This document shows, piece after piece, positions 5,992-17,265 of a stretch of DNA of 64,000 nt. A program made the position numbers and the translations under genes. A model generated the notes under the pieces. That model searched no databases. It saw only the letters and a list, made by a program, of their open reading frames with translations, and was not told the origin of the DNA. Each line of letters begins with the position of its first letter. Position 1 is the stretch's first letter. Source of the DNA: Pseudomonas sp. S06B 330 (GTDB lineage: Bacteria; Pseudomonadota; Gammaproteobacteria; Pseudomonadales; Pseudomonadaceae); the NCBI RefSeq assembly GCF_002845275.2, contig NZ_CP088149.1:5214001-5278000 (forward strand), in the 5' to 3' direction.

Positions 5992-8477
5992 CAGACCGAC
6001 ACCGTTTGCTGGCTGACATCGTCGACATGGGCGAAATGACGCAATGCCAGGCGCTCGGAAATCTCACCGCTGGCCACGGCGATGTCGTGTAACAGATCGG
6101 CCAGGCCAAGCAGCACCGCGTGAATGCTGGCACTGCCGAACAGCGAATCCTCGAGGCTGCGCAAATCAAAATGCTTGAGTTGTTCGGCCAGCAACGCCAG
6201 ACCAGGATCCACGCTGCCAGCGAACTCGGCGCACAAACGTCGATAGGCGCTCACCAGCAATTTGAGCTGGAACAGCACCGCATGAGGGTTCTGCTCATCG
6301 AGCAGCAAGAGGTCGAGCACCGGAATCAACTGGGCCACCGCCAGGTAGCGTGAGCGATAGGTAATACTGCTGTTACCCAACTCCAGCAGCCACTCCAGCC
6401 CGGCCTGATCGAACACCGCAGGCCCCCGCAGAAAGGCCGCCAAGCTGCTGCACAGAGACTGCAGACGCTCGATGCGCCGACCGATCATCAAGAAGCGCCA
6501 GCCCTCGTCGCGGGTCATGTCATCCAAGGCAAACCCGGACAGCGCCGCCATGGACATAAGCAGGCGGTTGAGAAAATCCACCTGTTCACCAAAGTCTGCA
6601 GCGTCATCATCAAGGCTGCGCGATTCGCGCTGTAACTCCACCAGCGCCTGCCAGTTTTCGCGCGAAAGCTTGCCGCGTACTTGCGAAGCCGCCCACTGCA
6701 AACGCTGCAAATTGGCATTGAGGCTGAAAGCCCAGTCGCTGTCGGCCAGAGCTGTACGCAAGCGCTCGGGCAATGTGCCCTCCTCTGGCAGTAACGCCAG
6801 TTCATCGGCCAGGGTTACCGCCGCCTGCAGGGCCAGGGGGTCATCGCCGTCCAGATAGCGGGTGAGGATAATCCGCAGCAAGCGAGCGCTGGCGTCGCAG
6901 CGTTCGCAATAGCGCCCGTACCAGAACAGGTTCTCCACCACGCGCGAAGGCAGGAATGGGTCCTGGCGAACCAGGTCTGCCACCCGCAAATCACGCTGAC
7001 TGCGCCACGGCTCACCGACCGCTGCCGCTTCACCCAGCACCCACGTGTCTTTGCTGGCACCGCCGCGCTGCATTGACACCACCTCAGCGTCGGCAAGGGC
7101 CGCGACCCGCGTCAAGCCACCAGGCAACACGCGGTACCCTTGCGCCGACGCCACTGCATACACGCGCATGCCGATAGCCCGAGACTGCAACTGGCCCGTG
7201 TCCTGCTGCCAGACCGGCGCCTGGGACAGCTGCGCCAGCTCCTGGGCAACATAGGCATAGGGACGCGCCTGAATCCGCTCGGCCAAGGCTTGGCGCTGAG
7301 CACTGTCCAGGTCACGACCGAACACCGGCCTGAAGCTCTGGGAAGGAAACGCCGGCTTGACCAGTAACTGCGGTAATTGCTCCAGCGCCCGCGCCATCAC
7401 TGCAGGTTCCCCGCACCACCAGGTGGCAATCGATGGCAGGCTGAGCGCTTCGCCAAACAGACGCTGATTGATCGCAGGTAAAAAGCCGAGCAATCCGGGC
7501 GACTCCAGCACGCCGCTGCCCAAGGCATTAGCCACCAACACCCGACCCTGGCGCACTGCATCGAGCAGTCCCGGCACACCCAGAGCGGAATCGGTGCGCA
7601 GCTCCAGCGGGTCGCAGAAGTCATCATCCAGGCGGCGCATGATCGCGTGAACACGGCGCAGGCCGCTGAGCGTCTTGAGGTACACCGTGGCATCGCGCAC
7701 GGTCAGGTCACTGCCCTCTACCAACGGATACCCCAGCTGACGCGCCAGATACAAATGTTCGAAATAGCTTTCGTTGAACCGCCCCGGTGTCAGCAGGACC
7801 ACCAAGGGTGGCTCTGTATCGTTGGGTGCCAGGCGGATCAGGGTTTGCTGCAAAGTCCGGAAAAAACCCGCCAGATGCTGCACCTGCAGATCCCGGTACA
7901 ACTCCGGCAAGGCCCGTGAAACGATGGTGCGGTTCTCCAGCGCATAGCCGGCCCCGGACGGTGCCTGGGTGCGGTCGGCGGTCACCCACCAACGTCCGTC
8001 CGGCGCCCGCGCCAGATCAACCGCATACACATGCAGAAACGTCCCGTCGGGCGGGCATATACCTTGGCACGGCCAAAGGAAATTGTTATGCCCGTAAACC
8101 AGTTCAGCCGGCAGCATGCCGTCGCTGATCAGGCGTTGTGGCCCGTAGATGTCTGCCAGTACGGCATTGAGCAACCGAGCGCGCTGGGCGACGCCTGCAG
8201 CCAGCTGCTGCCATTCGCCAGCAGGCAACACATGCGGCAAAAGATCGAGTTCCCAGGGGCGATCAGCGCCCTTGGGGTCGGCATAAATGTTGTAGGTGAC
8301 GCCGTTTTCCTGCAACTGCCGGGTCAACGAAGCCTGGCGCTGTGCCAACTGCGCCGGACCGCTGCGTTGCAGATAGTCGCACACCGGCTGCCAATGGCCA
8401 CGAACCTTGCCTTGGGCTGCAAGCATTTCGTGGTAAGCACCCGCTTGCAGCGGGTAGGCATCAAACAAGTCAGGCAT
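5991..8477 (-). CDS. Circularly permuted ATP-grasp / alpha-E fusion protein
   Basis: 828 residues from the ATG at 8477 (MPDLFDAYPLQAGAYHEM). Residues 1 to about 490 are the circularly permuted ATP-grasp ligase domain (GRFNESYFEHLYLARQLG; VANALGSGVLESPGLLGFLP). From about 508 to 818 comes the all-helical alpha-E domain, opening SRVVENLFWYGRYCERCDAS. Some genomes carry these as two genes; here they are fused. ATP-grasp enzymes make amide or peptide bonds through acyl phosphates, and comparative genomics has linked this type to alpha-E, transglutaminase and Anbu peptidase genes. The gene follows the DUF2126 gene after 40 bp and overlaps the next transglutaminase. No Anbu gene is in view. Confidence 0.88.
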   Translation of the reverse strand: MPDLFDAYPLQAGAYHEMLAAQGKVRGHWQPVCDYLQRSGPAQLAQRQASLTRQLQENGVTYNIYADPKGADRPWELDLLPHVLPAGEWQQLAAGVAQRARLLNAVLADIYGPQRLISDGMLPAELVYGHNNFLWPCQGICPPDGTFLHVYAVDLARAPDGRWWVTADRTQAPSGAGYALENRTIVSRALPELYRDLQVQHLAGFFRTLQQTLIRLAPNDTEPPLVVLLTPGRFNESYFEHLYLARQLGYPLVEGSDLTVRDATVYLKTLSGLRRVHAIMRRLDDDFCDPLELRTDSALGVPGLLDAVRQGRVLVANALGSGVLESPGLLGFLPAINQRLFGEALSLPSIATWWCGEPAVMARALEQLPQLLVKPAFPSQSFRPVFGRDLDSAQRQALAERIQARPYAYVAQELAQLSQAPVWQQDTGQLQSRAIGMRVYAVASAQGYRVLPGGLTRVAALADAEVVSMQRGGASKDTWVLGEAAAVGEPWRSQRDLRVADLVRQDPFLPSRVVENLFWYGRYCERCDASARLLRIILTRYLDGDDPLALQAAVTLADELALLPEEGTLPERLRTALADSDWAFSLNANLQRLQWAASQVRGKLSRENWQALVELQRESRSLDDDAADFGEQVDFLNRLLMSMAALSGFALDDMTRDEGWRFLMIGRRIERLQSLCSSLAAFLRGPAVFDQAGLEWLLELGNSSITYRSRYLAVAQLIPVLDLLLLDEQNPHAVLFQLKLLVSAYRRLCAEFAGSVDPGLALLAEQLKHFDLRSLEDSLFGSASIHAVLLGLADLLHDIAVASGEISERLALRHFAHVDDVSQQTVSV

Positions 8478-8517
8478 GGCAGTGCTCGAAGGCCACAGGT
8501 CAATGTCAGAGTAGCGC

Positions 8518-11500
8518 TCAGTGACGGCGCAGATCCAGAGTAAAGGGCATTTGTGGATCGATCTGGAGCATCGGCACCGGCAACTTGCCGGGACTGTGCC
8601 CAAGGCGGAAAAAACGTGCCTGGCGCCGGCTCTGGGCTTCGTTGGCATTAACCGGTTGGCTGTCGTAATTGCGCCCGCCAGGATGGGCTACGTGGTACTG
8701 ACACCCGCCCAACGAGCGCCCCATCCAGGTGTCGAGCACATCGAAGACCAGCGGCGCATGCACCGGGATGGTCGGCTGCAGGCAGTTGGCCGGTTGCCAG
8801 GCGCGATAACGCACGCCCGCAACGAATTCACCGACTCGCCCGGTAGCCTGCAACGGCACGGCGACACCGTTACACGTCAGCCGATAGCGCTCGGCGCTCA
8901 TGCCAGTGACCTTGACCTGCAGGCGTTCCAGCGACGAATCGACATAGCGCACGTTGCCACCTGCACCGCCCTCCTCACCCAGCACATGCCAGGGTTCCAG
9001 GGCCTGGCGGAACTCAAGTTCGATGCCATTGACCGCGTAGTCGCCCACCTTGGGAAAACGGAACTCAAAATGCGCGGCGAACCATTCGGCACGCAAGGGG
9101 TAACCGGCGGCATTGAGCTCGACCAGCACATCGGCAAAATCCTGCTCAATGAAATGCGCCAGCATGAAGCGATCGTGCAACTCAGTACCCCAACGGACCA
9201 AGCGGGTCGGTGCATAGGGCTCACGCCAGAAACGCGCCACCAATGCCCGCAGCAACAGCTGCTGGAGCAGGCTCATGCGCGCATGCGGCGGCATCTCGAA
9301 AGCCCGCAACTCCAGCAGGCCCAAGCGCCCGGCCGGGCCATCCGGCGAATACAGCTTGTCGATGCAGAATTCGGCGCGATGGGTGTTGCCGGTCACATCA
9401 ATCAGCAAGTTGCGCAGCAGTCGGTCCACCTGCCACGGTGCGCAGGACTCACCAGGCTCGGGCATCTGCGCGAAGGCAATTTCCAGTTCGTACAGCGCGT
9501 CGTTGCGCGCCTCATCCACCCGTGGCGCCTGAGACGTCGGACCGATGAACAGGCCAGAAAACAGATAGGACAACGACGGATGGTTGTGCCAATAACTGAT
9601 CAGGCTGCGCAACAGGTCTGGCCGACGCAGAAACGGTGAGTCCTGCGGTGTTGCGCCGCCAAGCACCAGGTGATTGCCGCCCCCCGTGCCGGTGTGGCGA
9701 CCGTCGATCATGAATTTTTCACTGATCAATCGCGTCTGCCGGGCCTGTTCGTAAAGAAATTCGGTGCGTTCGACCAGCTCATCCCAACTGGCTGACGGCT
9801 GCACGTTTACCTCGATCACGCCTGGGTCCGGGGTCACCTTGAAGTTAATCAGCCGCGGGTCAGCGGGTGGTTCGTAGCCTTCGAGGATCACCGGGCAATT
9901 GAGTTCAGACGCGCTTGCCTCAATCACCGCCACCAGCTCAAGGTAGTCTTCCAGTCGCGAGAGTGGCGGCATGAACACGTACAGGCGCCCGTCCCTGGGT
10001 TCGGCACATAACGCCGTACGGGTCAGCCAGTCGGCTGAGGCATCGGCCTTCGGCGCCGGCAGCTCCTGTTCATCCACTTCATGAGCCACACTGGCCGCGG
10101 CCAATACGTCACGGCCGGGCAAGTCACCGAGTAGCTGATTAGGATCAGTCGGATGTACATAGGGATACTCTGCCGCACTGACCCAAGGCTGCGCCGCCAG
10201 CGGCAGGCGATAACCCAACGCTGAATCACCGGGCACCAGCCGGCAATGTTCATCGCGCAGGTACCAACGCCCGCTCTGCCAGCGTTGCTCATCGGCACTG
10301 CGCGCCAGCGGCAGGACCTGACCGATGACCTGATCGAGGCCCTGGCCAAACACCTTGCGCAGCCGTACGCGCTCCATCTCATCATCCAGCCGCGCATCCT
10401 CGACGCTGACATTGGACGGCAACCCACCTTCGCGCCATAGGTAGTACAGCGCATCTTCGTAGGCTGGGAATACGTAACGGCCGGGCAACTTCAGCCGTTC
10501 GGCAACGCTGGCGAGAAAGCGCCCGGCCAACTGACTGTCGGCACCATAGTCTTCCTGCTCTCGGGCAATCAGTGCTGGATTGCGCCACACTGGCTCGCCG
10601 TCACGGCGCCAAAAGCAGTTCAACGACCAACGCGGCAGTTGCTCACCCGGGTACCACTTGCCCTGCCCAAAGTGAACCAGCCCCTTGGGTGCATAGTGCT
10701 GATACAGACGCTGGAACAACTCACTGGCCAGGCGACGCTTGTCCGGTCCCAGCGCCGTGGTGTTCCATTCAGCGCCGTCGGGGTCATCAAGGGCAACGAA
10801 GGTCGGCTCACCGCCCATGGTCAGGCGCACATCCGCCGCTTTTAGATCCGTGTCGACCTGACGCCCAAGGGTGACGATCGCCTGCCACTGCTCATCGCTA
10901 TAAGGCAGCGTTACCCGCGGTGACTCCCACAACCGCTCGACACGCATGTCATGGGTGAAAGTACAGTCACAGGGTTCGACCAGCCCGCTGATAGGCGCCG
11001 CAGAGGTTGGGTCAGGGCTACAGGCCAATGGGATATGGCCTTCACCGGCAAATAGCCCGGACGTCGCATCCAGGCCGATCCAGCCCGCGCCGGGCAGGTA
11101 GACCTCGCACCAGGCGTGCAGGTCGGTGAAGTCTTCATCGGCACCAGAGGGCCCATCAAGGGCTTTGATATCGGCACTCAGTTGAATCAAATACCCGGAA
11201 ACAAAGCGCGCCGCCAGGCCAAGATGACGCAGCAGTTGCACCAACAGCCAGGCCGAGTCGCGGCAGGAGCCCGAGCCAAGCTCCAGGGTCTGCTGCGGTG
11301 TTTGTACACCGGGTTCGAGCCGGATCAGGTAGCTAATGTCCAGACTCAGGCGCTGATTGAGGGCAACCAGAAAATCGACGCTGGGCTGAGGGCTGCGATC
11401 AATGCTCTGCAGGTAATCGGCGAACGCGGGGGTCAGCGGCAATTGCTCCAGGTAGGGCATCAGCTCGTGGCGTTCGTCCTTGGCATAGTTGAAGGGAATC

Positions 11501-11802: not shown

Positions 11803-12071
11803 GGCGGGCCTCCTGCGAGCCTGGACGGTAGCAGAGCCGCGCAAGACCTGTGCCAGGTGGCCAGTTCCACGATTGCTCCGCGCAACCTGCTCAGGTGCGC
11901 CAGAAACGCACCGCAACGAAGCTGCCGTGCAAGCCTTGCACAGATTTGAGGCTTTGCCAGCAGCGACGAGTGGGTCGTTGGCCCCCCATTGAGGGTAGCG
12001 ACGCAAAACCACGGTGGTCAGTAGGCTATCGCTATGGCGCGGCATACGGATTACCGGCGAACGGAGTGGCA

Positions 12072-12092
12072 ATGAACAACAACAAAAAACCA
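12072..12092 (+). promoter_or_regulatory. Hfq/Crc-type (AAN)n site on the first codons of the hydrolase gene
   Basis: Directly after the ATG comes AACAACAACAAAAAACC, five consecutive AAN triplets. This is the pattern bound by the distal face of Hfq and used with Crc for catabolite repression in Pseudomonas. Such sites typically overlap the ribosome site or early codons, as here. PHA synthesis in P. putida is known to respond to Crc, which makes the site plausible for this operon. Confidence 0.55.
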
Positions 12093-13388
12093 AAGGCAAG
12101 CCCTGAGCGACAGGCTATCGGTATGCCTCGCGTATTGCGCGCCCAGCAACCCGACCGAGAAGCGCGGGCATTTTTGCGCCTGGTCAACTTCTCCACCCGC
12201 TTGCGCCCTGCAGAAACCTATTCTCTGCCCAGACTGCGTCAGGGGTGGCGCTTGACCGCGCTTGCGCTCGGACGCAACCCAGCAGTGGGCTCAGTAACGG
12301 AGCAACTGATCGACGGTCCCGGTGGGGCCATCACCCTGCGCGTGTTCAAACCTGGCCATACTGAGCCGCTGCGGCCTGCGTTTATGTGGTTTTTCGGCGG
12401 CGGGTTCATCATCGGCGATCTGGACACCGCTGATGGCATCTGCCGCAGCATTGCGCTGGCCGCCAACTGCATCGTCATTGCCGTGCGCTATCGCCTGGCG
12501 CCGGAGCACGATCTGTCAGCAGGCCGTGCCGATGCCCTCGCTGCGTTCGAATGGGTGGCTAAACAGGGAGCTCAGCTGGGTATCGATATCACTCGTCTGG
12601 CCATTGGCGGTGATTCGGCAGGCGGCAATCTCTGCGCTGCCATCGCCCAGGAAAACGTGCGCCGCCGCGGGTCGGCACTGAGCCTGCAAGTGCTGGTGTA
12701 CCCGGCCACTGAACTGGTGGACAAGTTCCCCTCCTACGCGGAGAACGCGCACAGCAGTGCCCTGCTGACTGATCAAGCCGTTCAGTGGATTGAGCAGACC
12801 CTCGCCCCCTCGCTCAGCACACTGGACCTGCTTGACCCTTGGTATTCGCCACGCCGTAACCCCGACCTGCACGGCCTGGCGCCAGCGGTTATCGTCAGTG
12901 CCGGTTTCGATCCGATCCGCGACGACGGCCTGGACTATGCCGCGCGTCTGCGTGCAGCCCAGGTGCCGGTGGAACTGCTGCACTACCGAGGTCAGTTCCA
13001 CGGCTTCATCAATTTCGACTCGGTCAATAGCGCCAGCCGTGACGCGCTGCAGCGCATCGCCGATGCACTGAGCAATGCGTTCGCCCAGCAGTCGCCGGCC
13101 GACCGCACGATCGAGATCGCCGACAGAATGCCCCGCAAACACTCGCGACTACGCGCCAGCGCTGGTGAACTGGCCAGCTCGACCCTGACCGCGTGGGTTG
13201 TTACCGAACGCTGGGGCAGCGCCTTGCTACGCCTGTTGTCGCCCAAGGCGGCCGACACCTGTGGGCTGTTGATCAAACCTTTGTTCGTGCCCACCGCTCT
13301 GATCCGCCGCAAAGCGATTTCCGGTCTTGATCAATTGGCCGCACGCCAAACCTATCCGATAGAAAAAAACTGCTCTGTTAACCGTTGA
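12072..13388 (+). CDS. HSL-type alpha/beta hydrolase, first gene of a PHA-synthase-like operon
   Basis: 438 residues. The core is a hormone-sensitive-lipase (family IV) alpha/beta hydrolase: nucleophile Ser182 in GGDSAGG, Asp280 in SAGFDPIRDDG, His310 in GQFHGF. The oxyanion motif that is usually HGGG reads FGGG (Phe108-Gly111). A C-terminal tail of about 110 residues (328-438), basic and partly hydrophobic, extends beyond the usual family length. A frame extension upstream is open, but GGAGTGGCA before this ATG supports the start. The PhaE-like and PhaC-like genes follow 14 nt later and overlap each other, so it may act on a hydroxyacyl thioester, ester or oligomer. The substrate is not known. 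Confidence 0.85.
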   Translation: MNNNKKPKASPERQAIGMPRVLRAQQPDREARAFLRLVNFSTRLRPAETYSLPRLRQGWRLTALALGRNPAVGSVTEQLIDGPGGAITLRVFKPGHTEPLRPAFMWFFGGGFIIGDLDTADGICRSIALAANCIVIAVRYRLAPEHDLSAGRADALAAFEWVAKQGAQLGIDITRLAIGGDSAGGNLCAAIAQENVRRRGSALSLQVLVYPATELVDKFPSYAENAHSSALLTDQAVQWIEQTLAPSLSTLDLLDPWYSPRRNPDLHGLAPAVIVSAGFDPIRDDGLDYAARLRAAQVPVELLHYRGQFHGFINFDSVNSASRDALQRIADALSNAFAQQSPADRTIEIADRMPRKHSRLRASAGELASSTLTAWVVTERWGSALLRLLSPKAADTCGLLIKPLFVPTALIRRKAISGLDQLAARQTYPIEKNCSVNR

Positions 13389-13402
13389 GTGAGGACCACG
13401 TC

Positions 13403-13807
13403 ATGGCATTACCTGATCCGTTAAAACTGTATCGCGAGGCCATCACTCGGTTCGAGGACGGCATCAATGCCCTGGCTGCCCGCAACAACGACTCGAAACA
13501 GCTGGGTCTTGTGATCGACCAGTATTCCAAGGTCTCGCTCGGCCTCCAGCACCTGTCGCAAACGTCGCTGGAGCGTTTGCACAGAAGTCTGGACCTGCCC
13601 AGCCGTTCCGAAATCGCGGTGCTCGCTGCGTCGTTACAGCGAGTAGAGGACAAACTTGATCAGTTACTGCCGCCCCCCAGCAGTACGCCGATTGCAACAC
13701 GCCCGCCCCGTACTCGACGTCCGCTGGTTGAAGTTTCCCCTGCGCCGCTCAAACCGGCATCCAAACGTAAAAGCAAGGAAGGAAATCTCGATGCCTCGGC
13801 CGCATGA
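13403..13807 (+). CDS. Small PhaE/phasin-like helical protein
   Basis: 134 residues. The first 90 are predicted helical (LYREAITRFEDGINALAARN), with LDLPSRSEIAVLAASLQRVE followed by DKLDQL. That LPsRsEi-then-coil pattern is typical of the C-terminal region of PhaE/PhaR subunits of class III and IV PHA synthases and of some phasins. The last 40 residues are Pro/Lys/Arg rich. GAGG lies before the ATG at 13403; a TTG six codons earlier is a weaker alternative. It overlaps the synthase-like gene by 17 nt, so translation is probably coupled. PhaE proteins are usually much longer (about 350 residues), so this would be a minimal partner. Role inferred, not proven. Confidence 0.6.
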   Translation: MALPDPLKLYREAITRFEDGINALAARNNDSKQLGLVIDQYSKVSLGLQHLSQTSLERLHRSLDLPSRSEIAVLAASLQRVEDKLDQLLPPPSSTPIATRPPRTRRPLVEVSPAPLKPASKRKSKEGNLDASAA

Positions 13808-14867
13808 AAGCCCGGTAGCCGACGCGTCGTTGGCCAATAGACTGCGCTCGGAGGTCAGCATGATGATCCAGCGTAGCCGCAAGGGTCTTGAGTACCTGAG
13901 CACACCCCCGCCAGCCGTTGGTTTGACCCCCAGGACGCTTCTGCACCGACGCGGTACGGTAAGCCTGTACCACTATCACGCAACATCAGATGAGATTTAC
14001 CGCGTGCCGCTGTTGTTCGTTATGGCGACGACCAACAAGGCTGCCATTTTCGATCTGGCGAAGGGGCAGAGCCTGATCGAGTTTCTGCTCGCGCGCGGTT
14101 ACGACGTGTATGTCATTGACTGGAATCCGCCAACTCGGGAGGAGTCACACCTGAAGTTCGAGCATTATGTGCTCGACTTCATTCCCGACTGTATTCGCCG
14201 CGTACAGCAGGATTCAGGCGTGGATGACGTCACGCTGGTTGGCTATTGCATGGGGGGCGTGCTCGCAACCCTGTACGCCGCCCTACATCCGGACGGTCCC
14301 CTGAAAAACCTGGTGTGCTTCACCACGCCCATCGACTGGACGAAAATGCCGTTGGCCAGCCAACGTCATTTCCAGGCTGAGCGCTTGATCAATGCGAAAG
14401 GCATTGTCCCGCCCCAGACCATCGTCAAGGCAATTGAACTGCATCGACCAGCAGGCCGTATTGCCAGCCAGGTCCGGCTTTGGGACAACATGTGGAACGA
14501 CGACTACGTTAAAGGTCACCGCATGATGGCTCGCTTCAGTGACGAAACCCTGCCGCTTCCAGGCGAATACTTTCGACAGATCAATCAGGACCTGGGAAAA
14601 AAGAACGCGCTGTTTGAAGGGGGGTTGCGCATCGCTGGCCAAGAGGTCGACTTGAAAAACATCAAGGTCTCGTTGCTGCATGTCATCGCACAGTACGATT
14701 CGCTCGTGCCGCCAGACTGCGCACAGCCTTTGGTGGCGGGAGTGGGTTCGCACGACAAGGCAGAGCTGGTGCTGCCCGGTGGCCATATCAGCCTGGTGGC
14801 GGGACCGGCGGCGGTCAAGCGGATGTGGCCCAAGCTTGATCAATGGCTAGGGGAAAGGTCCCTCTAG
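13791..14867 (+). CDS. Class III-type polyhydroxyalkanoate synthase (PhaC-like)
   Basis: 358 residues, the length of class III PhaC (about 355) and far shorter than the about 560-residue class II PhaC1/PhaC2 of Pseudomonas. The lipase-like box is GYCMGG with nucleophile Cys153, followed by Asp303 (AQYDSLVPP) and His332 (PGGHISLVAGP). This spacing almost equals the Cys149/Asp302/His331 triad reported for Allochromatium vinosum PhaC. YVIDWNPP (107-114), DNMWNDDYVKGH and GEYFRQ are further PHA synthase signatures. The enzyme would polymerise hydroxyacyl-CoA into granules. AAGGAAGG precedes the ATG. The neighbour encodes a PhaE-like protein, and a bidirectional terminator follows. It could also be a thioesterase-like relative. 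Confidence 0.82.
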   Translation: MPRPHESPVADASLANRLRSEVSMMIQRSRKGLEYLSTPPPAVGLTPRTLLHRRGTVSLYHYHATSDEIYRVPLLFVMATTNKAAIFDLAKGQSLIEFLLARGYDVYVIDWNPPTREESHLKFEHYVLDFIPDCIRRVQQDSGVDDVTLVGYCMGGVLATLYAALHPDGPLKNLVCFTTPIDWTKMPLASQRHFQAERLINAKGIVPPQTIVKAIELHRPAGRIASQVRLWDNMWNDDYVKGHRMMARFSDETLPLPGEYFRQINQDLGKKNALFEGGLRIAGQEVDLKNIKVSLLHVIAQYDSLVPPDCAQPLVAGVGSHDKAELVLPGGHISLVAGPAAVKRMWPKLDQWLGERSL

Positions 14868-14892
14868 CCCAACCAAAATGTAACGTGCAAAA

Positions 14893-14917
14893 AAATACCC
14901 CTCACAGAGGGGTATTT
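14893..14917. terminator. Bidirectional terminator between the PHA operon and ygiQ
   Basis: AAATACCCCTC-ACA-GAGGGGTATTT forms a perfect 11-bp stem with T-rich flank on either strand. It separates two convergent genes. Confidence 0.85.
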
Positions 14918-14961
14918 ATGGGCTGATTACTTGAAACGCTCCGATGGAGAAAACCGCTCAA

Positions 14962-17265
<2,304 letters not shown>

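Follow-up and report, generated by a model that had tools for sequence, protein, structure and literature searches.

A PhaC-like gene pair of Pseudomonas sp. S06B 330 and a candidate lineage of two-subunit PHA synthases beside classes III and IV

Within the window, the 64,000-nucleotide stretch of the Pseudomonas sp. S06B 330 genome analyzed here, the overlapping gene pair at positions 13403-14867 most likely encodes a two-subunit PHA synthase that belongs to the class III/IV superclade and forms a lineage of its own. We place the probability of this reading at about 70%. PHA synthases fall into four classes, and the class influences which bioplastics can be made. On the sequences compared, the clade containing the window synthase can fairly be called a lineage, as yet unclassified, beside classes III and IV. 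It is widespread yet unnamed, and outside Pseudomonas it is almost always accompanied by an uncharacterized acetyltransferase.

The PhaC-like gene, its small partner and their second copy

The features are as follows, all on the plus strand.
11982..14861, plus strand: three-gene unit with a second copy in the genome (approximately 2919445-2922322 of the contig, at 7446-10323 of locus L163; 78.3% nucleotide identity by blastn)
12072..13388, plus strand: hormone-sensitive-lipase-type (HSL-type) esterase, 438 aa, with GGDSAGG; NF058653 LipP1, 283.9 bits
13403..13807, plus strand: small subunit, 134 aa from the ATG at 13403 (140 aa from the TTG at 13385), of PhaR/PhaE type by family profile
13791..14867, plus strand: PhaC-like catalytic subunit, 358 aa, translated without an internal stop
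14241..14258, plus strand: lipase-like box GYCMGG, with the nucleophile Cys153 at 14247-14249; Cys in 33 of 33 clade rows
14697..14702, plus strand: Asp303 followed by Ser304; the aligned class I, II and III rows have His at the position of Ser304
14784..14786, plus strand: His332 of the triad; His in 33 of 33 clade rows

An earlier note on this DNA had described a 358-residue protein with a Cys153/Asp303/His332 triad, and translation and alignment confirm this. The alignment places the Cys-Asp-His triad with the G-x-C-x-G-G box of PHA synthases, and the predicted fold is the PHA-synthase alpha/beta fold, with PhaC structures ranking top in the fold comparison. The note had also taken the triad spacing as almost that of the Allochromatium class III enzyme. 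The spacing is indeed similar, but so is that of the class IV enzyme of Bacillus cereus. The reported triads are Cys149/Asp302/His331 for class III of Chromatium vinosum and Cys151/Asp306/His335 for class IV of B. cereus (excerpts of PMC6403647), and because these are so alike the spacing does not by itself discriminate class III from class IV.

The small gene overlaps the start of the synthase gene by 17 bases. Its product gave no Pfam or NCBIfam match at E 0.01, with sub-threshold hits at looser settings, and its identity as a PhaR/PhaE-type protein comes from the family alignment, a point against our main reading. A homologue lies upstream of the synthase in 78 of 83 clade loci by iterative profile search; the misses are L031, L042, L045, L054 and L081, where L031 and L042 have short upstream sequence and L081 is partial. 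Among 49 members chosen for alignment, the NCBIfam model of the class IV subunit PhaR (TIGR02132) is hit by 41 (best E 2.5e-17), that of PhaE (TIGR01834) by 34 and a phasin-like one by 26; in Pfam, PF09712 is hit by 37 and PF05597, a phasin family, by 27. The family profile aligns with Priestia PhaR over 94 core columns (E 5.9e-17), and with the C-terminal part of PhaE (E 1.6e-12, columns 236-329 of 398). Run in reverse against 78 control loci, several of them repeat entries for a single place, it recovers Priestia PhaR (77 bits) together with many PhaE proteins. At 134-140 aa, the window partner has no counterpart of PhaE's long N-terminal region. Three helices are predicted, followed by a disordered tail bearing P-R-T-R-R-P (model pLDDT 74.3; low global confidence at pTM 0.36), and P-x-R-T-R-x-P is conserved family-wide in this tail predicted to be disordered. 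A sequence-profile search of solved structures gave weak matches, five at E up to 0.1 with a best of 5e-4. In Pseudomonas schmalbachii (L018) the small subunit and synthase are present in two tandem copies.

The genome is one contig of 5,637,435 bases with five PhaC_N matches. Class II accounts for two of them, at 5.373 and 5.376 Mb, and these genes were labelled phaC1 and phaC2 in this analysis from their order around a PhaZ frame. The window synthase lies at 5.228 Mb, placing it outside the class II cluster as the earlier note had proposed, and its paralogue, 80% identical, lies at 2.921 Mb. The note had implied a single gene outside the cluster, and there are in fact two copies in the genome. 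The remaining match is a third long PhaC of 597 aa at 3.654 Mb (L003, ORF 1183-2976, contig positions approximately 3654295-3656088); this joins class II at 100/100 in the first tree described below and is under the class I model cut-off (502.6 versus 622.65 bits).

The genes run tightly from esterase to small protein to PhaC-like gene, with the synthase last, and the paralogous unit at approximately 2.92 Mb has the same three. The esterase falls short of the LipP1 cut-off, at 283.9 versus 350 bits. Comparison of the two copies gave a dN/dS of 0.091 in the synthase, 0.256 in the small subunit and 0.118 in the esterase. Thus all three genes are under purifying selection, and the reading frame of the synthase is genuine and constrained. 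The paralogous unit (L163, 2912000-2931000 of the contig) has a molybdopterin dehydrogenase set upstream of it, and is followed by one gene for a CoA-transferase of family III, two for acyl-CoA dehydrogenases, and DUF1302 and DUF1329 genes. The CoA-transferase, acyl-CoA dehydrogenase, DUF1302 and DUF1329 neighbors hint at unusual acyl-CoA substrates. A scan of 11900-15100 for sigma-70 promoters found none, and the four terminator-like sites in that interval, each of them on the minus strand, are close to the number expected by chance (shuffle mean 3.1).

Placement among the PHA synthase classes

The best NCBIfam model for the window synthase is that of class III, TIGR01836 (E 1.6e-78), but at 264.2 bits it misses the cut-off of 365.3 by 101 bits, a cut-off exceeded by a match in 26 of 143 gammaproteobacterial genomes. 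Two trees were built, drawing on 29 (first) and 22 (second) of 76 loci together with the query, the paralogue, L106 and L153; the second omitted part of the class III rows as well as long-branch rows below threshold. In the first, with 79 rows, the query lies inside a clade of 33 (97/100) that is sister to two class IV-type rows (93/96). In the second, with 67 rows including 15 of class IV, the query clade has 26 rows with support of 87/98, and this lower value counts against our main reading. There the class IV rows form their own clade without the query (15 rows, 93/95), as do the class III, rhizobial and haloarchaeal rows (20 rows, 99/99). In both trees the class I/II branch is supported at 100/100 without the query, which at 358 aa is much shorter than the approximately 560-600 aa of those enzymes. 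Joining the clade with class IV gave an AU p of 0.49, and with class III 0.43.

The sister relation to class IV seen in the first tree (93/96) was therefore undecided once 15 class IV rows had been added, and we have withdrawn it. Membership of canonical class III is rejected, the protein being below the TIGR01836 cut-off and outside the class III clade in both trees; thus the class III-type identity, in the form the earlier note gave it, is unsupported, while what it described more broadly, a short synthase homologue of the two-subunit type with an upstream partner gene outside the class II cluster, is supported. A class II paralogue is likewise rejected as its identity. The note had named a position among plain thioesterases or hydrolases as the outcome that would overturn it. 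In the trees built with the synthase classes the query is not placed among plain hydrolases, and an identity as a plain alpha/beta hydrolase or thioesterase is rejected on the Cys nucleophile, the PhaC structures ranking first and the tree position. The sole hydrolase in the first tree is the genome's own PhaZ, which sits on an end branch of 5.78.

The clade is marked by the motif LWxNxWN, which is read in 81 of 81 clade loci and 32 of the 33 clade rows of the first tree, and in none of the other rows (0 of 46 in the first tree, 0 of 41 in the second). The exception is L153, which lacks the motif and joins the clade by a longer branch. Members are frequently annotated just as 'alpha/beta fold hydrolase' with a neighboring 'hypothetical protein'; for Novosphingobium pNL2 the NCBI name of the small homologue is PhaE and that of the adjacent synthase 'alpha/beta fold hydrolase'. 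With such generic annotations, and the query under the class III cut-off, surveys based on cut-offs can miss the clade.

Some observations concern other short synthases. A separate group of short gammaproteobacterial PhaC-like proteins (L111, L156, L159-L162) forms a 100/99 clade in the first tree, and the catalytic Cys is replaced by Ser in 5 of 13 'other' rows of the triad alignment, L111 among them. Four rhizobial plasmid loci (L108, L113, L115 and L169) pair a phaC of class III type with a gene of PhaE type, which has no name in L108, and an iron-containing alcohol dehydrogenase gene lies upstream of each pair. On the Methylobacterium plasmid pM44601 (L112) a phaC-like gene in two frames, absent from the gene table, lies beside an annotated PhaE.

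A linked acetyltransferase, and the Pseudomonas copies

A gene for a GNAT-family acetyltransferase lies downstream of the synthase in 65 of 85 loci (L004 and L163 being one place). In 64 of these its frame starts no more than 100 bases from the end of the synthase gene, and in L018 it follows the second tandem copy. By origin, and with many loci close relatives so that the counts are of non-independent events, the gene is present in 32/32 non-Pseudomonas Pseudomonadota, 20/20 Acidobacteriota, 4/6 Chloroflexota, 1/1 Myxococcota, 2/9 Pseudomonas, 1/1 Aquipseudomonas, 1/1 Zestomonas and 2/7 loci without a named phylum. These counts cover loci with enough flank, leaving uncounted the window itself, L004 and L081, together with three short-flanked loci. 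Among the 78 control loci the sole match is L153, itself a clade member. Both members scanned with Pfam have a PF00583 match in the linked protein, and in the two members scanned with NCBIfam all matches were far below cut-off.

The linkage is tested most strongly genome by genome. Searches of 299 Pseudomonadota genomes each, the two sets being identical as far as listed, found the synthase in nine (E 1e-80) and the GNAT in eight (E 1e-15). Those eight are precisely the non-Pseudomonas synthase holders, from two genera, and by coordinates the GNAT match in each either overlaps the synthase match at its end or begins no more than 15 bases from that point. S06B 330 is the ninth, and no GNAT orthologue was found in its genome (best hit 28 bits). 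A plain PHA synthase leaves the linked GNAT unexplained, and this counts against our main reading.

Within the genus Pseudomonas the synthase is patchy, being found in 10 of 298 genomes, and two of these ten have the GNAT, in both cases adjacent by coordinates. The Pseudomonas rows adjoin those of Variovorax and Rubrivivax in the first tree, which fits a possible acquisition of the Pseudomonas copies from Burkholderiales. The suggestion in the earlier note of an accessory or transferred system thus agrees with both the patchy presence and the tree neighbors. The Pseudomonas group differs also at the residue following the triad Asp. This is Ser or Thr in 18 copies of the group (two unparsed), and elsewhere His in 56 of 58 with one Asp and one Ser (five unparsed). 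In a class II enzyme, replacement of this His by Gln left 24% of the in vivo activity (excerpts of PMC6403647). Ser304 in the window enzyme is consequently a point against our main reading.

Other neighbors recur among 84 loci, their families named from scanned representatives: short-chain dehydrogenases near 33, HSL-type esterases near 32 and AMP-binding ligases near 25. The counts exclude the reversed loci L084, L087, L088 and L091, L082 duplicates the window, and some clusters that are apparently antisense shadow frames of true genes were set aside. Ten clade loci (L024, L037 and eight more) have a member of the WS/DGAT wax ester synthase family nearby. Near the synthase of an acidobacterium (L046) is a PHB_acc_N regulator, with 98.3 bits against a cut-off of 25; it is under the TIGR01848 cut-off (94.9 versus 109.45 bits), and members of its family lie close to 18 of the 84 loci, which are for the most part closely related. 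In Alloalcanivorax (L063) a TIGR01841 phasin lies near the synthase (37.8 bits, cut-off 30.2). These PHA-gene neighbors were seen in just these two distant lineages and not beside the window gene, a further point against our main reading.

Proposed function, alternatives and known systems

We propose that Cys153, activated by His332, would accept the 3-hydroxyacyl group from CoA, and that Asp303 would activate the next hydroxyl. Activity and granule nucleation would require the small partner of PhaR type, an all-helical protein, and the neighboring HSL-type esterase may trim or recycle oligomers. The ancestral operon probably comprised the PhaR-type subunit, the synthase and the GNAT acetyltransferase, and most Pseudomonas would then have lost the last of these. 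More speculatively, the three proteins together could constitute a fifth PHA synthase lineage, made up of a minimal PhaR-type subunit, a synthase and a dedicated GNAT, and ranging over Pseudomonadota, Acidobacteriota, Chloroflexota and Myxococcota. The GNAT would act by acetylating either the synthase, the basic tail of the subunit or an amine chain-transfer agent, and the supply of acetyl-CoA would thereby govern polymer start, chain length or granule binding, and derived Pseudomonas would have been freed by loss of the GNAT and the changed residue after the catalytic Asp. We consider this three-protein reading unlikely.

The pair might instead be a conventional PhaEC synthase of class III that Pseudomonas has acquired. 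TIGR01836 is the best NCBIfam model (E 1.6e-78), size, triad spacing and two-gene layout fit, and a sister relation is compatible (AU p 0.43). Yet the protein is 101 bits under a cut-off that 26 of 143 gammaproteobacterial genomes exceed, the class III rows are a separate clade (99/99) and the long N-terminal region of PhaE is missing from the partner, making this explanation improbable. Spread of a Bacillus-type class IV PhaRC synthase into Gram-negative bacteria has rather more to commend it, and we rate it as unlikely. The partner family is closer to PhaR than to PhaE in profile matches, two class IV-type rows were sister to the clade in the first tree (93/96), and the window synthase is 34.9% identical to Priestia PhaC over 96% of its length (E 5e-70), which ranks second among plasmid records behind a clade member. 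GYCMGG is shared with the Priestia row, yet also with a Haloferax class III row. Set against this, the 15 rows of class IV group apart in a clade of their own (93/95), the join has an AU p of 0.49, and the phaR-phaB-phaC order of Priestia is absent, most lineages having the GNAT instead.

The remaining alternatives question polymerization itself. The enzyme might hydrolyze hydroxyacyl groups or transfer them to another acceptor, possibly an amine that the GNAT helps to make or modify. The strict GNAT linkage in the non-Pseudomonas genomes searched would be in accord with this, as would D-S in place of D-H in Pseudomonas and a paralogue lying beside CoA-transferase family III, acyl-CoA dehydrogenase and DUF1302/DUF1329 genes instead of phaA and phaB. 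We nevertheless consider it about as unlikely as a class IV origin, since the Cys nucleophile and the predicted PHA-synthase fold argue otherwise, a PhaR/PhaE-type partner marks polymerases, and PHA regulator or phasin genes lie near some members. That the Pseudomonas copy is cryptic or decaying and without function is very improbable. The GNAT is absent, the conserved His after Asp303 is replaced and presence is patchy at 10/298 genomes, but between the paralogues the synthase has a dN/dS of 0.091 and the esterase one of 0.118, and the entire unit of overlapping genes has been kept twice.

We found no description of the clade or of a PhaC-linked GNAT in the open-licence literature searched (subscription papers being outside its scope), including excerpts of PMC6403647, PMC8312272, PMC8537097, PMC8231600, PMC3227634, PMC10888616 and PMC4326521. 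An excerpt of PMC9705695 gives phaR as present only in class IV synthases. Bradyrhizobium japonicum USDA 110 has five PhaCs reported across four classes (Quelas 2013, as cited in an excerpt of PMC6403647 and less fully in one of PMC4326521), so a clade member may already have been labelled class IV there. In Bradyrhizobium diazoefficiens only PhaC1 of five paralogues is needed for PHB, with expression of phaC3 and phaC4 poor or absent (excerpt of PMC10888616). To the extent that any of these PhaCs belongs to the clade, the PhaC1-only result counts against our main reading. The GNAT link poses a testable question, whether acetylation is involved in making the polymer or in its control, and the GNAT-less Pseudomonas copies provide a natural comparison in a well-studied host genus.

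Several known systems can be compared with the window pair. With the class IV PhaRC of Bacillus and Priestia it shares a short PhaC of approximately 360 aa, GYCMGG (in the Priestia row), similar triad spacing and a partner whose family profile aligns with PhaR over 94 core columns. It differs in forming a separate clade at approximately 35% identity, in a partner of approximately 134 rather than 199 aa with no phaB between the window genes, and in the LWxNxWN motif and the GNAT linkage of most members. The class III PhaEC of the Allochromatium type and of haloarchaea likewise has a short PhaC, a two-gene unit and the triad spacing, and the window partner family resembles the C-terminal part of PhaE; the query is however below the model cut-off, in its own clade, and has a partner without the long N-terminal domain. 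The linked gene, in the members scanned, resembles GNAT N-acetyltransferases in its match to PF00583 and differs in reaching the cut-off of no NCBIfam model. The long PHA synthases of the 100/100 branch share the catalytic fold and triad, and differ in having approximately 25% identity, a longer N-terminus and a C-terminal extension.
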